Below, piece by piece: positions 4,395-31,808 of a stretch of DNA of 64,000 bases. Position numbers and translations under genes: made by a program. The first letter of the stretch is position 1. Every line of letters begins with the position of its first letter. The notes below the pieces were generated by a model. It had not been told where the DNA came from, did not search any database, and worked only from the letters and a program-made list of their open reading frames with translations. Origin of the DNA: Marinobacter lipolyticus (GTDB taxonomy: Bacteria > Pseudomonadota > Gammaproteobacteria > Pseudomonadales > Oleiphilaceae); the NCBI RefSeq assembly GCF_018424605.1, contig NZ_QTKT01000003.1, positions 186,001-250,000 on the forward strand, in the 5' to 3' direction.

Positions 4395-5279
4395 TTAACG
4401 GATATGGCCCAAAATCCCGTCAAGCTCATCCAGCGAACTGTATTCGATCACCAGTTTGCCCTTGCCGCGCTGACCATGGGCGATGGATACCCGCGCTCCG
4501 AGACGTTCCGCCAGGTCGTCCTGCAGGGCACGGATGTTGGGATCCACCTGACCGGATGGCTTCTTGCGATCCGGCGTTTCCTGCTGGATGCGGCGAACCA
4601 GCGCCTCGGTCTGGCGCACCGACAGGGATTTTGCCACCACCTGACGCGCCACCTGCATCTGCTGCTCCGGCGGCAGGGTCAGCATGGCACGGCCATGGCC
4701 CATTTCCAGGTCGCCGTGCTCCAGCATCAGCCGCACGTCTTCGGTCAGGCCGATCAGACGCAGCAGGTTGGTGATGGTGGTGCGGCTCTTGCCCACCGCT
4801 TCCGCCACCTGGGCCTGGGTGAGCCCGAATTCGTCCTGCAACCGTTGCAGGGCAAAGGCTTCTTCGATCGGATTGAGGTTCTCGCGCTGGATGTTTTCGA
4901 TCAAGGCCATGGCAATGGCGGCCTCATCGGGCACATCGCGCACGATGGCCGGAATACGGTCCAGCTCGGCCATCTGGGTGGCGCGCCAGCGGCGTTCACC
5001 GGCGATCAGCTCGTAGCGGCCTTCGGCGATGGGGCGCACCACCACCGGTTGCATCACGCCCTGTTGGCGAATGGAGTCCGCCAGCTCCTGCAGCGCAGCC
5101 GGGTCCATATCGCGGCGGGGCTGAAAGCGGCCGCGCTGGATCAGATCCACCGGCACGTCCCGCAATTCGCCGTCGTGGTCTTTCAGCTCCTGATCCAGAT
5201 TGACCCTGGAGCCCTGCAACAGCGCGCCCAGCCCGCGTTCACCCAGTCCTCGTTTCTTCGCCGCCATGGTATTTGTCAT
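4395..5279 (-). CDS. parB: Chromosome partitioning protein ParB
   Basis: A 294-residue ParB/Spo0J protein. The N-terminal CTPase/ParB domain has the signature YELIAGERRWRATQMAEL (around residue 85), followed by the helix-turn-helix parS-binding domain (LTQAQVAEAVGKSRTTITNLLRL) and a C-terminal dimerisation domain. ParB loads at parS and spreads along DNA to form the segregation complex. Homologues begin MAAKKRGLG, so the true start may be the ATG at 5267. It follows parA by 38 bp. Matching parS sites are found in recF at 28640 and 29276. Confidence 0.96.
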   Translation of the reverse strand: MTNTMAAKKRGLGERGLGALLQGSRVNLDQELKDHDGELRDVPVDLIQRGRFQPRRDMDPAALQELADSIRQQGVMQPVVVRPIAEGRYELIAGERRWRATQMAELDRIPAIVRDVPDEAAIAMALIENIQRENLNPIEEAFALQRLQDEFGLTQAQVAEAVGKSRTTITNLLRLIGLTEDVRLMLEHGDLEMGHGRAMLTLPPEQQMQVARQVVAKSLSVRQTEALVRRIQQETPDRKKPSGQVDPNIRALQDDLAERLGARVSIAHGQRGKGKLVIEYSSLDELDGILGHIR

Positions 5280-5317: not shown

Positions 5318-6112
5318 TTACACGGCAACCGCCGTGGATGTCTTTTGCGCGCCATGGCGGCGAACCATTTCTCCGGCGAGGGCCAGGTAGGCCACCGCGC
5401 CCTTGGAAACGCGATCGTATTTCAGGGCCGGCATGCCGTAGCTCGGGGCCTCCGCCAGGCGTACATTGCGGGGAATCACCGCCTTGTAGACCTTGTCACC
5501 GAAGTATTCGCTGAGCTGACCGGACACATCCAGGGTCAGGCTGTTGCGGGGGTCGTACATGGTGCGCAGGATGCCTTCCACCTGCAGATTCGGATTGACC
5601 GTTTCCTGGATCTGCTCCACGGTGTTCATCAGCGCCGCCAGCCCCTCCAGGGCGTAGTATTCGCACTGCATGGGGATCAGCACGGTATCCGCCGCCGACA
5701 GGGCGTTGACCGTCAGCAGGCTCAACGAGGGCGGGCAGTCGATCAGGATGTAATCGTAGTTGTCGCGAACGGTATTCAGGGCGAGACGCAGCCGGTGTTC
5801 GCGGCCGATTTCATTCATCAGCTCCACTTCCGCGGCCGTCAGGTCACCGTTGGACGGCATCAGGTCAAAGCCCGAGGCTTCGGCGGCAATGATCACGTCC
5901 GCGGCCGCCGCCCGCTTGGTCAGCATGTCGTAACCGGACAGTTCGAGGGCGTTTTTGTCCACGCCGCTGCCCATGGTGGCGTTGCCCTGGGGGTCCATGT
6001 CCACCAGCAGTACACGGCGTTTGGTGGCCGCCAGGGAGGCAGAAAGATTGACGCAGGTGGTGGTTTTTCCCACACCGCCTTTCTGATTGGTCACTGCAAT
6101 CACGCGCGCCAT
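5318..6112 (-). CDS. parA: Chromosome partitioning ATPase ParA
   Basis: A 264-residue Soj/ParA-type ATPase with the deviant Walker A motif KGGVGKTT near the N-terminus, switch region DMDPQGNAT and Walker B segment ILIDCPPSL. It is the short chromosomal form without an N-terminal regulatory HTH. It makes the nucleoid-bound gradient that moves ParB-parS complexes. A strong ribosome site AAAGGAGG lies 7 nt before the ATG. The gene lies between rsmG and parB. Confidence 0.96.
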   Translation of the reverse strand: MARVIAVTNQKGGVGKTTTCVNLSASLAATKRRVLLVDMDPQGNATMGSGVDKNALELSGYDMLTKRAAAADVIIAAEASGFDLMPSNGDLTAAEVELMNEIGREHRLRLALNTVRDNYDYILIDCPPSLSLLTVNALSAADTVLIPMQCEYYALEGLAALMNTVEQIQETVNPNLQVEGILRTMYDPRNSLTLDVSGQLSEYFGDKVYKAVIPRNVRLAEAPSYGMPALKYDRVSKGAVAYLALAGEMVRRHGAQKTSTAVAV

Positions 6113-23416: not shown

Positions 23417-24073
23417 GGTGATGGTCTCACATTACAGGTATTGGAAAATTCATGGTTGGCTGGAAAATGAACAGCCAAAACAGGAGCGGCATTCTATGCA
23501 AAGTGGCGAATGAATTCAATGGTTATTGCGTAGGCAGGAATGCGGATCTCCGGGAACCAGATCGAAGGGGCGAAGTTGTCCCGCCACTAATCATAGTAGT
23601 AAGTCTTTTGTTAATTTTCTTAAGGATTAATTATTACTGTTATTACTGAGCACGTTTTCTGTGGATAAGCGATCTTTAGCGCTAGAAAACAGTAGCTTGC
23701 TCGGTTTACAAAGGGGTTGAAAAGGCTCCCTGAGGCCTGTGTACAGGCCAGGCATGGATTGTGGGTAACCTGGCCTCGGGTGAAAAACCGAAGTTATCCC
23801 TGTATCCGTCAAAGGTCTGCACACAGGGTTAACGGCAGGGTATACACACAGGCCTGTGGGTAACCTTTCGGAGATGAATTTTCTGTACACAAGGCTGTAG
23901 GTAAGTCTGTAAAAAATTGAAAAAAAAGAAAATAGATTTCCACAGGCTGTTCATGAGTGGCTTTTCGCTCTTTTACTTGCGGGGCCCGCGGGTTAGAATT
24001 CCGGGTCATCTCTGAGAACGATTTGCAGCTGATTCGTTTCGAGAAATTCCTGAGGCATCGGAGGCAGGCTGTC
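23417..24073. other. oriC: Candidate chromosomal replication origin (oriC) between rpmH and dnaA
   Basis: This 657-bp gap has no gene. It carries a perfect DnaA box TGTGGATAA (23660-23668, minus) and near-boxes TGTGGGTAA (23760-23768 and 23855-23863, minus) and GTATACACA (23840-23848, plus); weaker matches lie at 23883-23891 and 23937-23945. AT-rich segments that could melt lie at about 23588-23647 and 23906-23938. The position between rpmH and dnaA is the usual origin site in pseudomonads and relatives. A -10-like TAGAAT at 23994-23999 may belong to the dnaA promoter. Confidence 0.85.
23491..23519 (-). promoter_or_regulatory. Sigma70-type promoter of rpmH
   Basis: On the minus strand TTGAAT (23519-23514) and TAGAAT (23496-23491) are 17 bp apart. 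The promoter would begin transcription about 70 bp before the rpmH ATG. Confidence 0.6.
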
Positions 24074-25525
24074 GTGCCGAACACCATCTGGCATCAATGT
24101 CTAGAAGTACTCCGGGACGAGTTTCCCGCCCAACAGTTCAATACCTGGCTGAGGCCCCTGCAGTCTGACCATCGCGAAGGTCAGCTGATGCTGTTTGCGC
24201 CCAACCGGTTTGTGATGGACTGGGTGAACGAAAAGTATCTCAGGCGCATAGAAGAGGTATTGAAGGACCTGAATGGCGGGCAGGCTCCCCGGGTCAATAT
24301 GAAGGTGGGCTCCGCGCCCCGTGCCGGCGACCTGGTGGTGCGGTCGGACCCCGGTAACGATGCCGGTAACGCCGCCCAGGAGGAGGCCACCAGTCGCGTG
24401 ACCGAAGAGGAACGGGGCGTGGCCGCAACGGTGGTGTCGTCGTCGGTCAAGCCGAAAAACGACAGGGAGCGGCGGACGGTCCAGGTTGAAGGCGATATCA
24501 AGCATCAGAGCTTCCTTAATGAAGGCTTCACGTTTGAAACCTTCGTGGAAGGCAAGTCCAACCAGTTGGCCCGTGCGGCCTCCATGCAGGTGGCGGAGAA
24601 CCCGGGCGGCGCCTACAACCCGCTGTTTCTTTATGGTGGTGTCGGGCTTGGTAAAACCCACCTGATGCACGCCATCGGCAACGACATTGTGCGTCGCAAT
24701 CCGTCCGCCAAGGTGGCGTACCTGCGCTCGGAGCGGTTCGTGGCGGACATGGTGAAAGCGTTACAGTTAAACGCCATCAATGAATTCAAGCGCTACTACC
24801 GGTCGGTGGATGCGCTGCTGATTGATGACATCCAGTTTTTCGCCCGCAAGGAACGGTCTCAGGAAGAATTTTTCCACACCTTCAATGCGTTATTGGAGGG
24901 TGGCCAGCAGGTGATCGTGACCTGTGACCGCTTCCCGAAAGAAATCGTCGACATGGAAGAGCGGCTGAAATCCCGTTTCGGCTGGGGCCTGACGGTGATG
25001 GTCGAGCCACCGGAACTGGAAACCCGCGTCGCGATTCTAATGAAGAAAGCCGAGCAGGCGAACGTCAAGCTCAGCAGCGAGGCGGCGTTCTTTATCGCCC
25101 AAAAAATTCGCTCAAACGTGCGAGAGCTAGAAGGCGCGCTTCGTCTGGTGATAGCGAATGCTCACTTCACCGGATCGGAAATCACGCCTCCCTTTATCCG
25201 GGAGAGCCTGAAAGACTTGTTGGCGCTGCATGAAAAGCAGGTCAGTATCGACAATATTCAGCGCACGGTGGCGGAGTATTACAAGATCAAGGTCGCCGAT
25301 CTGCTGTCCAAACGGCGGACGCGGACGGTGACCCGACCGCGCCAGGTGGCCATGTCGCTGTCCAAGGAGCTGACCAACCACAGCCTGCCGGAAATTGGCG
25401 ATGCGTTTGGCGGCCGCGATCACACCACGGTGCTGCACGCCTGCAAGAAGATTATTGAGTTGCAGGAGACGGATCCCAGTATCCGTGAGGATTATCAGAA
25501 TTTTATGAGGCTGCTGACTACCTGA
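24074..25525 (+). CDS. dnaA: Chromosomal replication initiator protein DnaA
   Basis: A GTG start at 24074 is chosen: it gives [25 protein letters not shown], the conserved domain I opening, and GGAGG lies 9 nt upstream. The protein has 483 residues: domain I, a variable acidic linker (about 75-140), the AAA+ domain with Walker [10 protein letters not shown] (188-196) and [10 protein letters not shown], and the C-terminal box-binding domain with [14 protein letters not shown]. It faces the candidate oriC and probably represses its own promoter through the nearby DnaA boxes. Confidence 0.98.
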
Positions 25526-25579
25526 TAGCGGGTTGGTTGCCGACAACATTCACCTTCCGGAAGAAGAATGCTGAGTGCC

Positions 25580-26680
25580 ATGAAACTGACGATCAGCCGA
25601 GAATCATTGCTTACCCCCCTGCAGTCGATCGCCGGGGTTGTCGAGAAAAAACAGACCATGCCGGTACTGTCCAATGTGCTGCTGGTGGCGGAGGACAATA
25701 CCCTCACCATGACCGGCACCAACATGGAAGTGGAACTGGTTGGCCGGATTACCCCGGTGCATGTGGATCAGCCCGGTAAAATCACCGTGCCGGCCCGCAA
25801 GCTGGCGGATATCTGCCGTGCTCTGGGGGACGAGGCGCCGATCGAGCTGGCGCTGGAAGGGGATCGCCTGCATCTGCGTTGCGGCGCCAGCCATTTCACC
25901 CTGTCAACACTGCCGGCGGAGCATTTTCCGAATGTGGAAGACGAGGCCGAGAGTTTCCGGCTGGAACTGCCACAGAAAGAACTGGGCCGGATGCTGGATG
26001 CCACCGCATTCGCCATGGCCCAGCAGGACGTGCGCTATTACCTGAATGGTCTGCTGCTGGAAGTGGACCAGGGGCACGTGCGTACGGTGGCCACCGACGG
26101 CCACCGGCTGGCGATGGCTCATTTCGATCTGCCCACCGGCAGCGATCTTAAACAGGTGATCGTGCCGCGCAAGGGTGTGCTGGAACTGGCGCGGTTGCTG
26201 GACGACGTGGAAACACCGGTAACGCTGGTGATCGGGGACAACCACCTGCGTGCCACCGTGGGCAGTTATACCTTCACCTCCAAACTCATCGAGGGCAAAT
26301 TCCCCGACTACAACCGGGTTATTCCGCGGGGCGGGGATAAAGTGGTGCTCGCCGACCGGTCCACGCTCAAGAACACCCTGCAGCGGGCCGGTATCCTGTC
26401 CCATGAAAACATTCGTGGGGTGCGTCTGAATCTGGCGCCGAACGAGCTGCAGGTGTTCGCCAACAACCCGGATCAGGAACAGGCCGAAGACGCGCTGCCG
26501 GTGGAGTATCAGGGCGAATCACTGCAGATCGGCTTTAATGTAGGCTATCTGGTGGATGTGATGAACGCACTGGACGAAGAACAGGTGAAGATCACCCTGT
26601 CCAATCCCAATGCCAGTGCGCTGATCGAAGCCCAGAACGACAATCGCTGTCTGTACGTGGTCATGCCCATGCGCCTGTAG
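25580..26680 (+). CDS. dnaN: DNA polymerase III subunit beta (sliding clamp)
   Basis: A 366-residue clamp starting MKLTISRESLLTPLQSIAGVVEKKQTMPVLSN and ending CLYVVMPMRL, the standard termini. Three clamp domains are present in the full length. An ATG four codons earlier (25568) follows GGAAGAAGA closely and may be used instead. It lies 54 bp after dnaA. Confidence 0.97.
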   Translation: MKLTISRESLLTPLQSIAGVVEKKQTMPVLSNVLLVAEDNTLTMTGTNMEVELVGRITPVHVDQPGKITVPARKLADICRALGDEAPIELALEGDRLHLRCGASHFTLSTLPAEHFPNVEDEAESFRLELPQKELGRMLDATAFAMAQQDVRYYLNGLLLEVDQGHVRTVATDGHRLAMAHFDLPTGSDLKQVIVPRKGVLELARLLDDVETPVTLVIGDNHLRATVGSYTFTSKLIEGKFPDYNRVIPRGGDKVVLADRSTLKNTLQRAGILSHENIRGVRLNLAPNELQVFANNPDQEQAEDALPVEYQGESLQIGFNVGYLVDVMNALDEEQVKITLSNPNASALIEAQNDNRCLYVVMPMRL

Positions 26681-26770
26681 CATCAGGCGAACCGGGCCGC
26701 TGCCAGGGTGGCGCTTTCTGATGTCGCGGGTGTGGATAAACATCGGATTCAGGACAAGGTGAGGGATGAA

Positions 26771-28048
26771 ATGGTTTTCGGAACGGTGAATAACGGTATC
26801 AAAGGCGCATTCCGCATTGGTCAGACGGTGTCGGTGCTTGGGCGCACCGGCGTCAACTGGCTGCGTGGGGAGCGGCCACCCGCGCCGCGGTTACTCAGAC
26901 AGACCTTCGAATCCCTGGGTGCCACCTACATCAAGCTGGGCCAGTTCATCGCCAGTTCCCCGACGTTCTTTCCCAAGGAATACGTTGAGGAATTCCAGTA
27001 CTGCCTCGATAAAACGCCGAATCTCCCGTTCGGCGTGATCCGCAAGATCATTCGCGATGAGCTGGGTCGTCCTATTGAAGAGGTGTTCTCCGAGATTGAT
27101 CCGGTGGCGCTGGCGTCGGCGTCCATCGCCCAGGTCCACGCTGCCCGGCTGGTCAGCGGCGAAGACGTGGTGATCAAGGTCCAGAAGCCGGGTGTGGAAA
27201 ACATCCTGCTGACCGACCTCAATTTTCTTTTCCTGTCGGCCAAAATCCTCGAGACGCTGGCTCCGAAACTGTCCTGGACCTCGCTGTCCGGTATTGTGGA
27301 AGAAATCCAGCGCACCATGATGGAAGAGTGTGACTTCATCAAGGAAGCTAACAACCTCAAAGTGTTCCGGGATTTTCTCCACAACACCCACAATGAGGAC
27401 GCCGCGGTACCTTTGGTGTACGAACACTGCAGCACCCGCCGGATTCTCACCATGGAGCGTTTCCACGGTGTGCCGTTGACGGACCTGGAGAGTATCCGCG
27501 GTTACGCGCGGGATCCGGAGCGTACGCTGATTACCGCCATGAACACCTGGTTCTCCAGCCTGACCCAGTGCGAGTTCTTTCACGCCGACGTGCATGCGGG
27601 AAATCTGATGGTGCTGAAGGATGGCCGCGTGGGGTTCATTGATTTTGGCATTGTGGGGCGGATTCGCCCGGACACCTGGCAGGCCGTCAGTGACTTTATC
27701 TCCGCCATCATGGTGGGTAACTTCGATGGCATGGCGGACGCGATGATTCGAATCGGAATCACCCGGGAGCACGTTGAAGTGTCGGCGCTGGCCGCGGATT
27801 TGCGCAGGCTCTATCAGCAGATGGACAGGATGGTTCCGGACCAGGTGCCCTATGAGGCGGAACAGGCGGAAGACGATGTGAATAACATCCTGATGGACAT
27901 GGTGAAGATCGGTGAGAGCCACGGCCTGCATTTCCCGCGGGAGTTCGCGCTGCTGCTCAAGCAGTTCCTGTATTTTGACCGCTATGTACACATCCTCGCG
28001 CCGGAAATGGATGTGTTTATGGATGAGCGACTAAACATGTTGCATTGA
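26771..28048 (+). CDS. ABC1/AarF/UbiB-family atypical kinase
   Basis: With the ATG at 26771 (GTGAGGG just upstream) the protein has 425 residues. It carries the family hallmarks in order: the KxGQ motif YIKLGQF (about residue 54), the Ala-rich loop ASASIAQVHAA, the lysine in VVIKVQKPGV, EECDFIKEANN, the catalytic HADVHAGN and the metal-binding DFG. No C-terminal membrane helices are obvious, unlike UbiB itself. The family acts on ubiquinone biosynthesis or lipid-linked processes, but the substrate here is unknown. An earlier start at 26708 is possible. It sits between dnaN and recF, which are normally adjacent. Confidence 0.9.
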   Translation: MVFGTVNNGIKGAFRIGQTVSVLGRTGVNWLRGERPPAPRLLRQTFESLGATYIKLGQFIASSPTFFPKEYVEEFQYCLDKTPNLPFGVIRKIIRDELGRPIEEVFSEIDPVALASASIAQVHAARLVSGEDVVIKVQKPGVENILLTDLNFLFLSAKILETLAPKLSWTSLSGIVEEIQRTMMEECDFIKEANNLKVFRDFLHNTHNEDAAVPLVYEHCSTRRILTMERFHGVPLTDLESIRGYARDPERTLITAMNTWFSSLTQCEFFHADVHAGNLMVLKDGRVGFIDFGIVGRIRPDTWQAVSDFISAIMVGNFDGMADAMIRIGITREHVEVSALAADLRRLYQQMDRMVPDQVPYEAEQAEDDVNNILMDMVKIGESHGLHFPREFALLLKQFLYFDRYVHILAPEMDVFMDERLNMLH

Positions 28049-28182: not shown

Positions 28183-29313
28183 ATGGCGCTGGTCAAACTG
28201 CAAACGGAAAATTTCCGCAACCTCACCTCTGCGCCTGTTTCTTTTTCCCCGTCCTTCAATCTGTTGTTTGGCGAAAATGGCAGTGGCAAAACCAGCGTGC
28301 TGGAGGCCATTGGCTATCTCGGACTGGGGCGATCTTTTCGGGTCAGTCGGCATCAGGCGGTGGTCAGCCATGGTGAGCAACGGCTCACCGTATTCGGTGG
28401 CCTTGATCAGGGGCTGACGGGGAGCGAAGAACCGGCGGAGTATGGCGATGCGCTGAGACATCGTCTGGGATTCGGCCGGGATGTAGGGCTCAAGGAAACC
28501 ACGTTAAGGGTGGATGGGGAAGCGGTGAAGAACCTGTCCGCCCTGGCCAGACATCTGCCGGTATCGGTAATCGACCCCGGCGTTTTCGAGATCGTTGCGG
28601 GTGGACCGGGCAAACGCCGTCAATTTCTGGACTGGTCAGTGTTCCACGTGGAACCTTCGTTTGCAGGTCTTTGGCAGCAATGCCAAAGAGTGACATCACA
28701 GCGGAATCAAACGCTGAGAAATGGTAGACTAGACGACGCTTTGATCCGTGTCTGGGACAAACAGTACACCCTGCTTGCTGACCGTCTGACGGAGGCTCGC
28801 AGGGCCGCCTTTGACCTGTTCCGGGAAGCGTTCGCCAGACTGGTCCGCGAAGTGGATGCGCCCTGGGTTGAGGGCATGAAAATGGACTTCCACCCGGGCT
28901 GGGATACCAGCCAGTCATTGGCGGACGTGCTCGCATCTCATCGGGAGCAGGAACTGCGAATGGGCCACACGCTGTATGGCCCCAATCGCGCGGATATAAA
29001 AATGCGGTTTCAGGGTCGTCCGGTGGCGGAGACTTTTTCCCGCGGCCAACAGAAGACGCTGGTCATTCTGATGAAAATCGCTCAGGGCATGGTTCTGAGC
29101 TCGCTGGGTAAGCAGGTGACGTTTTTGCTTGATGACATCAACGCGGAGCTGGATGTCGGTCACCGGGCGATGCTGGCAACCAAGCTTCACGAATTGCGGT
29201 GTCAGGTTTTTATCACCTCCATCGAATCGCCCCGGCCAGAGGAACTCTGGCAGGACACGAAACCGGATTATCGAATGTTCCACGTGGAACATGGCACATT
29301 GACGGAAGAATAA
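28183..29313 (+). CDS. recF: DNA replication and repair protein RecF
   Basis: A 376-residue SMC-like ATPase with Walker A GENGSGKTSVLE, the signature FSRGQQKTLVILMKIAQ and Walker B FLLDDINAELD. It loads RecA at gapped DNA together with RecOR. Start MALVKLQTENFRNLTS is typical. Two parS-like palindromes are embedded in the reading frame (28640 and 29276), where they encode FHVEP and FHVEH. Confidence 0.97.
   Translation: MALVKLQTENFRNLTSAPVSFSPSFNLLFGENGSGKTSVLEAIGYLGLGRSFRVSRHQAVVSHGEQRLTVFGGLDQGLTGSEEPAEYGDALRHRLGFGRDVGLKETTLRVDGEAVKNLSALARHLPVSVIDPGVFEIVAGGPGKRRQFLDWSVFHVEPSFAGLWQQCQRVTSQRNQTLRNGRLDDALIRVWDKQYTLLADRLTEARRAAFDLFREAFARLVREVDAPWVEGMKMDFHPGWDTSQSLADVLASHREQELRMGHTLYGPNRADIKMRFQGRPVAETFSRGQQKTLVILMKIAQGMVLSSLGKQVTFLLDDINAELDVGHRAMLATKLHELRCQVFITSIESPRPEELWQDTKPDYRMFHVEHGTLTEE
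28640..28655. promoter_or_regulatory. parS: parS centromere site 1 (inside recF)
   Basis: TGTTCCACGTGGAACC matches the bacterial parS consensus (GTTCCACGTGGAAC core, as in pseudomonads) with one outer base breaking the symmetry. ParB encoded at 4395-5279 should bind here. Confidence 0.9.
29276..29291. promoter_or_regulatory. parS: parS centromere site 2 (3' end of recF)
   Basis: TGTTCCACGTGGAACA is a perfect 16-bp palindrome and an exact form of the parS consensus. It lies 22 bp before the recF stop and 636 bp from site 1. Confidence 0.93.

Positions 29314-29372: not shown

Positions 29373-31808
<2,436 letters not shown>

Follow-up and report, generated by a model that had tools for sequence, protein, structure and literature searches.

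The closest described counterpart of the locus studied here is the origin region of Pseudomonas aeruginosa. Its chromosome is reported to carry ten parS sites, four of them near oriC, and two of these four lie outside recF. The other two, parS1 (TGTTCCACGTGGAACC) and parS2 (TGTTCCACGTGGAACA), have been listed (PMC4368675, Table 1) and located in recF (PMC5521831, PMC3909081). According to PMC4368675 and PMC5521831, ParB binds best at parS2 and parS3, followed by parS1 and parS4, each of parS1-4 can by itself support segregation, and mutating the intragenic sites while leaving the protein unchanged resulted in weaker ParB binding or a failed silencing test. The weakest binding was reported for parS5, which has an altered core (PMC4368675). 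An excess of ParB reduces expression from PA0003 to PA0015, recF and gyrB included, and in parB-null and parS-null strains expression rises only in PA0010-PA0015, near parS3 and parS4 (PMC5521831); thus repression near the recF sites by ParB at its native level was not seen. Location of parS inside genes has been reported for Caulobacter too (PMC5815017). The chromosomal parS of Bacillus and Caulobacter belong to the same palindrome family, the sites being carried by other genes.

We analysed a window, meaning the whole stretch of 64,000 nucleotides of Marinobacter DNA, for which an earlier note had claimed two parS-type sites inside recF, at 28640 and 29276, the second of them a perfect palindrome. 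Pattern searches of the window and of the genome bore out both statements. The features of the region are the following.

4395 to 5279, minus strand: parB (TIGR00180, 188 bits, cut-off 58)
5318 to 6112, minus strand: parA, named from ParA-type ATPase matches and its position beside parB
23957 to 25525, plus strand: dnaA, an open reading frame named from its position ahead of dnaN
25568 to 26680, plus strand: dnaN (TIGR00663)
26708 to 28048, plus strand: AarF/UbiB-like kinase gene between dnaN and recF, match under the curated cut-off
28183 to 29313, plus strand: recF (TIGR00611, 319 bits, cut-off 172), carrying both sites
28640 to 28655, no strand: putative parS site 1, TGTTCCACGTGGAACC, 1 mismatch from a perfect palindrome, RecF codons 153-158
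29276 to 29291, no strand: putative parS site 2, TGTTCCACGTGGAACA, perfect palindrome, RecF codons 365-370
29394 to 31808, plus strand: gyrB, the gene after recF, by analogy with P. aeruginosa in the possible range of ParB spreading

Both sites are read in the same reading frame of recF, site 1 encoding VFHVEP and site 2, which ends 6 residues ahead of the RecF C-terminus, encoding MFHVEH; the peptides FHVEP and FHVEH of the earlier note are contained in these. Its statement that parA-parB lie about 23 kb from the recF sites agrees with the coordinates above, whereas its wording of an "essential-fold protein" was too loose, given that RecF is dispensable in E. coli. Among named sequences, the window recF matches those from Marinobacter best (85-86% identity). 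For parA, none of the matches listed (the best 25 of 29) scored above the curated cut-off. In E. coli, dnaN and recF are adjacent, whereas the AarF/UbiB-like gene separates them in the window; a match to this gene was present, whatever its place in the locus, in 53 of 54 Marinobacter-type loci.

Because both 16-mers are letter-identical to P. aeruginosa parS1 and parS2, and likewise reside in recF, the Marinobacter pair is the counterpart of the arrangement described there, and the core observation is already known. As far as the P. aeruginosa reports go, the likeness covers the gene, the 16-mers down to the outermost letters (a final C in parS1, a perfect palindrome in parS2) and the placement of parAB across dnaA/oriC from the recF sites. 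The two systems differ in the distance of parAB, reported at about 7 kb from oriC in P. aeruginosa and lying about 18 kb from the dnaA reading frame in the window, and in the number of sites. Whereas P. aeruginosa has its ten, the recF pair represents the only copies with 0-1 mismatch in the whole Marinobacter genome (3.76 Mb, 46 contigs), three further places having 2 mismatches as compared to one for a reversed control pattern. The pair is thus probably the only strong parS of this Marinobacter. Within the window, a search allowing 3 mismatches matched nothing but the two sites, whose actual mismatches are 1 and 0; the threshold itself is loose, with 0.30 matches expected in the window and two reached in 6 of 100 shuffles.

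Several properties argue that these sites are chromosomal parS. Both are 16-bp palindromes of the TGTTYCACGTGRAACA type, and both lie close to the origin, as judged from the dnaN-recF-gyrB neighbourhood, in a genome that carries parA and parB. An alignment to 6t1f showed that the cognate ParB of the window keeps GKSR, N and GHxR (as GHGR), and with them the residues of parS-type specificity, R173 and G201 in Caulobacter numbering; residues of GKSR and GHxR are reported to contact or decide parS in Caulobacter ParB (PMC7383237). By homology and conservation, we identify the recF 16-mers as parS with high confidence. By analogy with P. aeruginosa, ParB would load at both recF sites and then spread across neighbouring DNA, and ParA would move ParB, thereby segregating the origin. 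Taking all data together, we regard it as nearly certain that the two 16-mers form the chromosomal centromere and that selection at the DNA level maintains their palindrome, and we infer that such sites have usually outlasted a clean loss of recF.

To follow the sites among relatives, recF was read in 181 genomes, comprising 110 from the class of the window (which we take, from the taxonomy of Marinobacter, to be the Gammaproteobacteria), 69 around genome G236, E. coli and the window itself. The 110 recF represent the top of an HMM ranking among 231 class genomes with a match over the cut-off and, because they were chosen in this manner, unusual recF genes are under-sampled. The sample around G236 comprised 80 genomes and contributed 69 more recF, so that 72 of its 76 recF-bearing genomes were read. 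Counting genomes as ParB-positive at E ≤ 1e-20 to the window ParB, at least one exact core was present in 145 of 161 ParB-positive recF, with both sites exact in 101, site 1 in 109 and site 2 in 137. Across all 181 recF, the true core occurred 250 times and a reversed-core control not once. Counted by strand, the 104 class genomes with ParB contain 368 matches of the 15-mer, 312 of them in recF; of the 84 class genomes that have both sites, 75 show no 15-mer match outside recF. No exact site was found in 16 of the 161 ParB-positive recF, four of these among the 104 class genomes; three of the four have parS-like matches elsewhere, and G191 has none. The core was also present in each of 10 additional class recF, a count that excludes loci already read, with both sites exact in 9. 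In contrast, 26 recF from beyond the class, ParB status disregarded, were all without the core, even with 1 mismatch allowed and the 200 nt following the gene included. As judged from these comparisons, the parS-in-recF arrangement is old in the Gammaproteobacteria and widespread among relatives. Seven more of the 16 ParB-positive recF without an exact site, L227, L231, L235, L236, L237, L239 and L240 of families f166 and f178, have no site 1 and show CATGTG in place of CACGTG at site 2, which is perhaps a variant or a weakening parS.

A palindrome within a gene could also reflect the encoded peptide, with RecF function preserving FHVEP and FHVEH and codon usage producing the palindromes by coincidence. 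We therefore compared codon use in 55 Marinobacter-type recF, consisting of the window and 54 named loci, two of which bear the names Halomonas and Oleiphilaceae. The longest invariant nucleotide runs coincided with site 2 (19 nt) and site 1 (16 nt), followed by runs of 8 and 6 nt. At 206 codon positions with a degenerate residue conserved to at least 90%, the mean synonymous variability was 0.41, and only 16 positions used a single codon throughout, 10 of these inside the two sites. Likewise, in ParB-positive RecF reading FHV, the histidine was encoded by CAC in 251 of 264 cases and the valine by GTG in 261 of 264, as compared to a recF-wide background of 47% CAC and 38% GTG. The peptide itself proved less constant than the DNA. 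A lysine stood in place of E, with the core intact, in 10 rows at site 1 and 30 at site 2; in 35 of these 40, which are not independent rows, the A creating the lysine was paired with a T in the opposite arm. Residues flanking the intact core varied as well, with M, V, L, R, T and others before it and H, P, Q and R after it. Part of site 1 nevertheless rests on a protein motif, as its F-H is often kept without the palindrome: among 71 rows lacking an exact site 1, F was present in 69, H in 49, V in 11, E in 25 and the last-place P in 36. In 41 rows lacking an exact site 2, H remained in 15. One alignment reading covered only loci with a plus-strand recF match, leaving 14 other-strand loci uncounted, and site 2 was unaligned in 4 of 79 named loci. 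Retrieval of the named loci relied on six peptide patterns, of which DWSVFHVE spans site 1; the site-1 peptide of these loci is therefore biased, while their codon choice there is unbiased.

Because synonymous positions are frozen while the outer-codon residues, which the 16-mer does not fix, vary, selection acting on the DNA itself is a well-supported explanation for the conservation of the recF palindromes among ParB-bearing relatives. The outcome that the earlier note had named as contrary to its reading, related recF genes conserving only the peptide, did not occur. Its view that both functions are constrained stands for the DNA and is weaker for the protein, whose residues drift once the site is absent and whose gene can be dropped altogether. 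Considering, in addition, the absence of the core outside the class and the persistence of sites where recF is gone (see below), we deem conservation of the peptides for RecF function exceedingly improbable as the cause of the palindromes. Rather, the recF reading frame appears to be written through the palindromes, with the FHVE(P) and FHVE(H) peptides being largely a by-product.

Between the two sites, at 28722 to 28730 and about 67 nt behind site 1, recF of the window contains an extended -10-like element, TGnTAnnnT (TGGTAGACT). Among loci in which site 1 was read (54, 10 and 106 loci having been submitted), the element was present in 52 of 52 Marinobacter-type loci and in all 10 loci from elsewhere in the order, but in 3 of 83 in the remaining class sample. 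It overlaps a second block of recF codons that are frozen. Scanning the recF region for sigma-70 promoters yielded 0, with 0.6 expected, and no match with a -35 box. The element, perhaps an intragenic promoter between two parS, is for this reason only a lead.

If the palindromes serve ParB, they should depend on its presence. We compared 18 ParB-negative recF, 17 found by search plus that of E. coli, which was included on the basis that Enterobacteriaceae are reported to be without par genes (PMC3909081). An exact site was absent in 16 of the 18, and one or both sites were present in G282 and G138, whose assemblies are fragmented (about 190 and 300 contigs, respectively). Two recF rows with a weak ParB match had no site. 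Around G236, a parS-like 15-mer with a CAC or CAT centre was present in 62 of 62 strong-ParB genomes and in 0 of 18 others, the latter comprising 17 without a ParB match and one with a weak match and reflecting few independent losses. Within genus g38, the ParB-bearing G059 has both recF sites exact, and the ParB-less G177 and G261 carry 1-2 mismatches in all four. When corrected for kinship, the contrast was not significant, with 4 independent pairs yielding 1 as expected, 0 against and 3 without difference; when G282 and G138 were omitted, 2 pairs remained, one agreeing with the expectation and the other showing no difference. The data thus fit a decay of the sites following ParB loss, short of significance after kinship correction. 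They also bear on whether the palindromes might be targets not of ParB but of a different regulator that binds CACGTG and controls recF or gyrB. Such a role could be entertained given that ParB binding in Marinobacter is a prediction from homology and that the -10-like element lies between the sites in this order. Against it stand the co-occurrence of sites with strong ParB around G236, limited as it is by the few independent losses, the identity of all 16 bp to sites reported as ParB-bound in P. aeruginosa, and the specificity residues retained by the window ParB. We thus give another regulator hardly any credence and continue with parS as the preferred assignment.

We then asked what becomes of the sites when the gene is lost. 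Of 50 class genomes without an over-cut-off recF, 47 were followed, the three omitted being the small G052 and G172 (0.3-0.4 Mb) and a third genome, probably G288, whose best recF match has an E-value of 2.6e-46. The exact parS pattern occurred in 24 of the 47, and surrounding stretches were taken from 20 of them; 16 showed dnaN beside gyrB, and the other four (G216, G119, G291 and G296) had parS elsewhere. gyrB was sought in 31 of the 47, yielding a true GyrB in 21; the other 10, with no match or a weaker ParE-like one, were set aside because their origin region is probably unassembled. With G190 also set aside for an incomplete gyrB, 20 gyrB stretches were read, of which 10 had dnaN beside gyrB and 10 did not. 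The resulting recF-less set comprises 26 (16 + 10) class genomes with dnaN adjoining gyrB, no recF between them and none over the cut-off elsewhere. Not counted were G121, where a recF-like piece separates dnaN from gyrB and a single parS-like place differs by one mismatch, G197, with about 2 kb between the two genes and no parS, and eight genomes whose stretch showed no dnaN: G180, G063, G264, G222, G287, G296, G126 and G047, the last of which carries a single exact parS next to gyrB.

Most of these gaps hold parS: exact sites were found in 20 of 26, two in 13 and one in 7, giving 33 in total, and families f80, f103, f119 and f129 are among those with such gap sites. The 20 gaps span 62 to 864 bp, measured between the dnaN and gyrB BLAST matches, and 19 of the 20 genomes have ParB, G210 showing no match. 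The gap of G297 contains two sites with one mismatch each. No gap parS was present in five genomes (G291, G119, G216, G217 and G120); in the first three, parS lies near mnmG-parAB instead, and G217 and G120 have no exact parS pattern anywhere in the genome. In L154 and L155, the loci of the recF-less G216 and G119, several parS lie in and around mnmG, rsmG and parA, again placing parS in coding genes. The largest gap, 864 bp at 2844-3707 of L152 (G193), contains two perfect parS 722 nt apart. Given that 20 of 26 recF-less gaps hold exact parS, it seems from these sequences that what evolution keeps is the DNA element and not the RecF protein. After a clean loss of recF, the centromere would usually stay in the dnaN-gyrB gap.

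Alternatively, the gap sites could have arisen anew or moved in after recF was lost, in which case nothing outlived the gene. We placed the genomes on a DnaN+GyrB tree of 117 rows, a quick tree with some long branches and partial sequences. On it, recF loss required 9 changes, at least 6 of them forced by well-supported branches, and the 20 recF-less genomes with parS accounted for about 7 changes, at least 4 of them forced. Retention and re-gain are inseparable on a tree. Moreover, paired gap sites lie 25-106 nt apart, aside from the one pair at 722 nt, unlike the spacing of about 600-640 nt within recF, and no recF reading frame was evident around them, as might be expected of newly acquired sites. 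On the other hand, repeated acquisition would have had to deliver all 33 exact sites to the same slot over the roughly 7 changes, and in families f119 and f90 recF-bearing members stand beside recF-less ones, the f90 join being flagged for long branches. While the tree alone is compatible with both histories, we infer that the gap sites were retained, which is the simpler reading, and consider a later gain unlikely. Among the matches listed in a literature search, the retrieved text contained no report of parS being present where recF was lost; the survey by Livny et al. 2007, reportedly genome-wide for parS, lay outside its scope. As far as this search reaches, the persistence of parS in recF-less genomes is the new part of our findings.

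For the Gammaproteobacteria as a whole, we think it likely that the slot between dnaN and gyrB is the ancestral centromere locus and recF its tenant, with parS imposing FHV(E/K) on the protein, and with deletion or decay of recF sparing the centromere, which then sometimes accounts for much of the intergenic DNA that is left. These data indicate that, across much of a class, part of a protein sequence can be set by a bacterial centromere, and that such a centromere can outlast the gene that carries it. Conserved RecF peptides should accordingly not be taken simply as protein motifs. Furthermore, deleting recF in such bacteria may remove the centromere too, and the species that naturally lack recF offer themselves as test cases.
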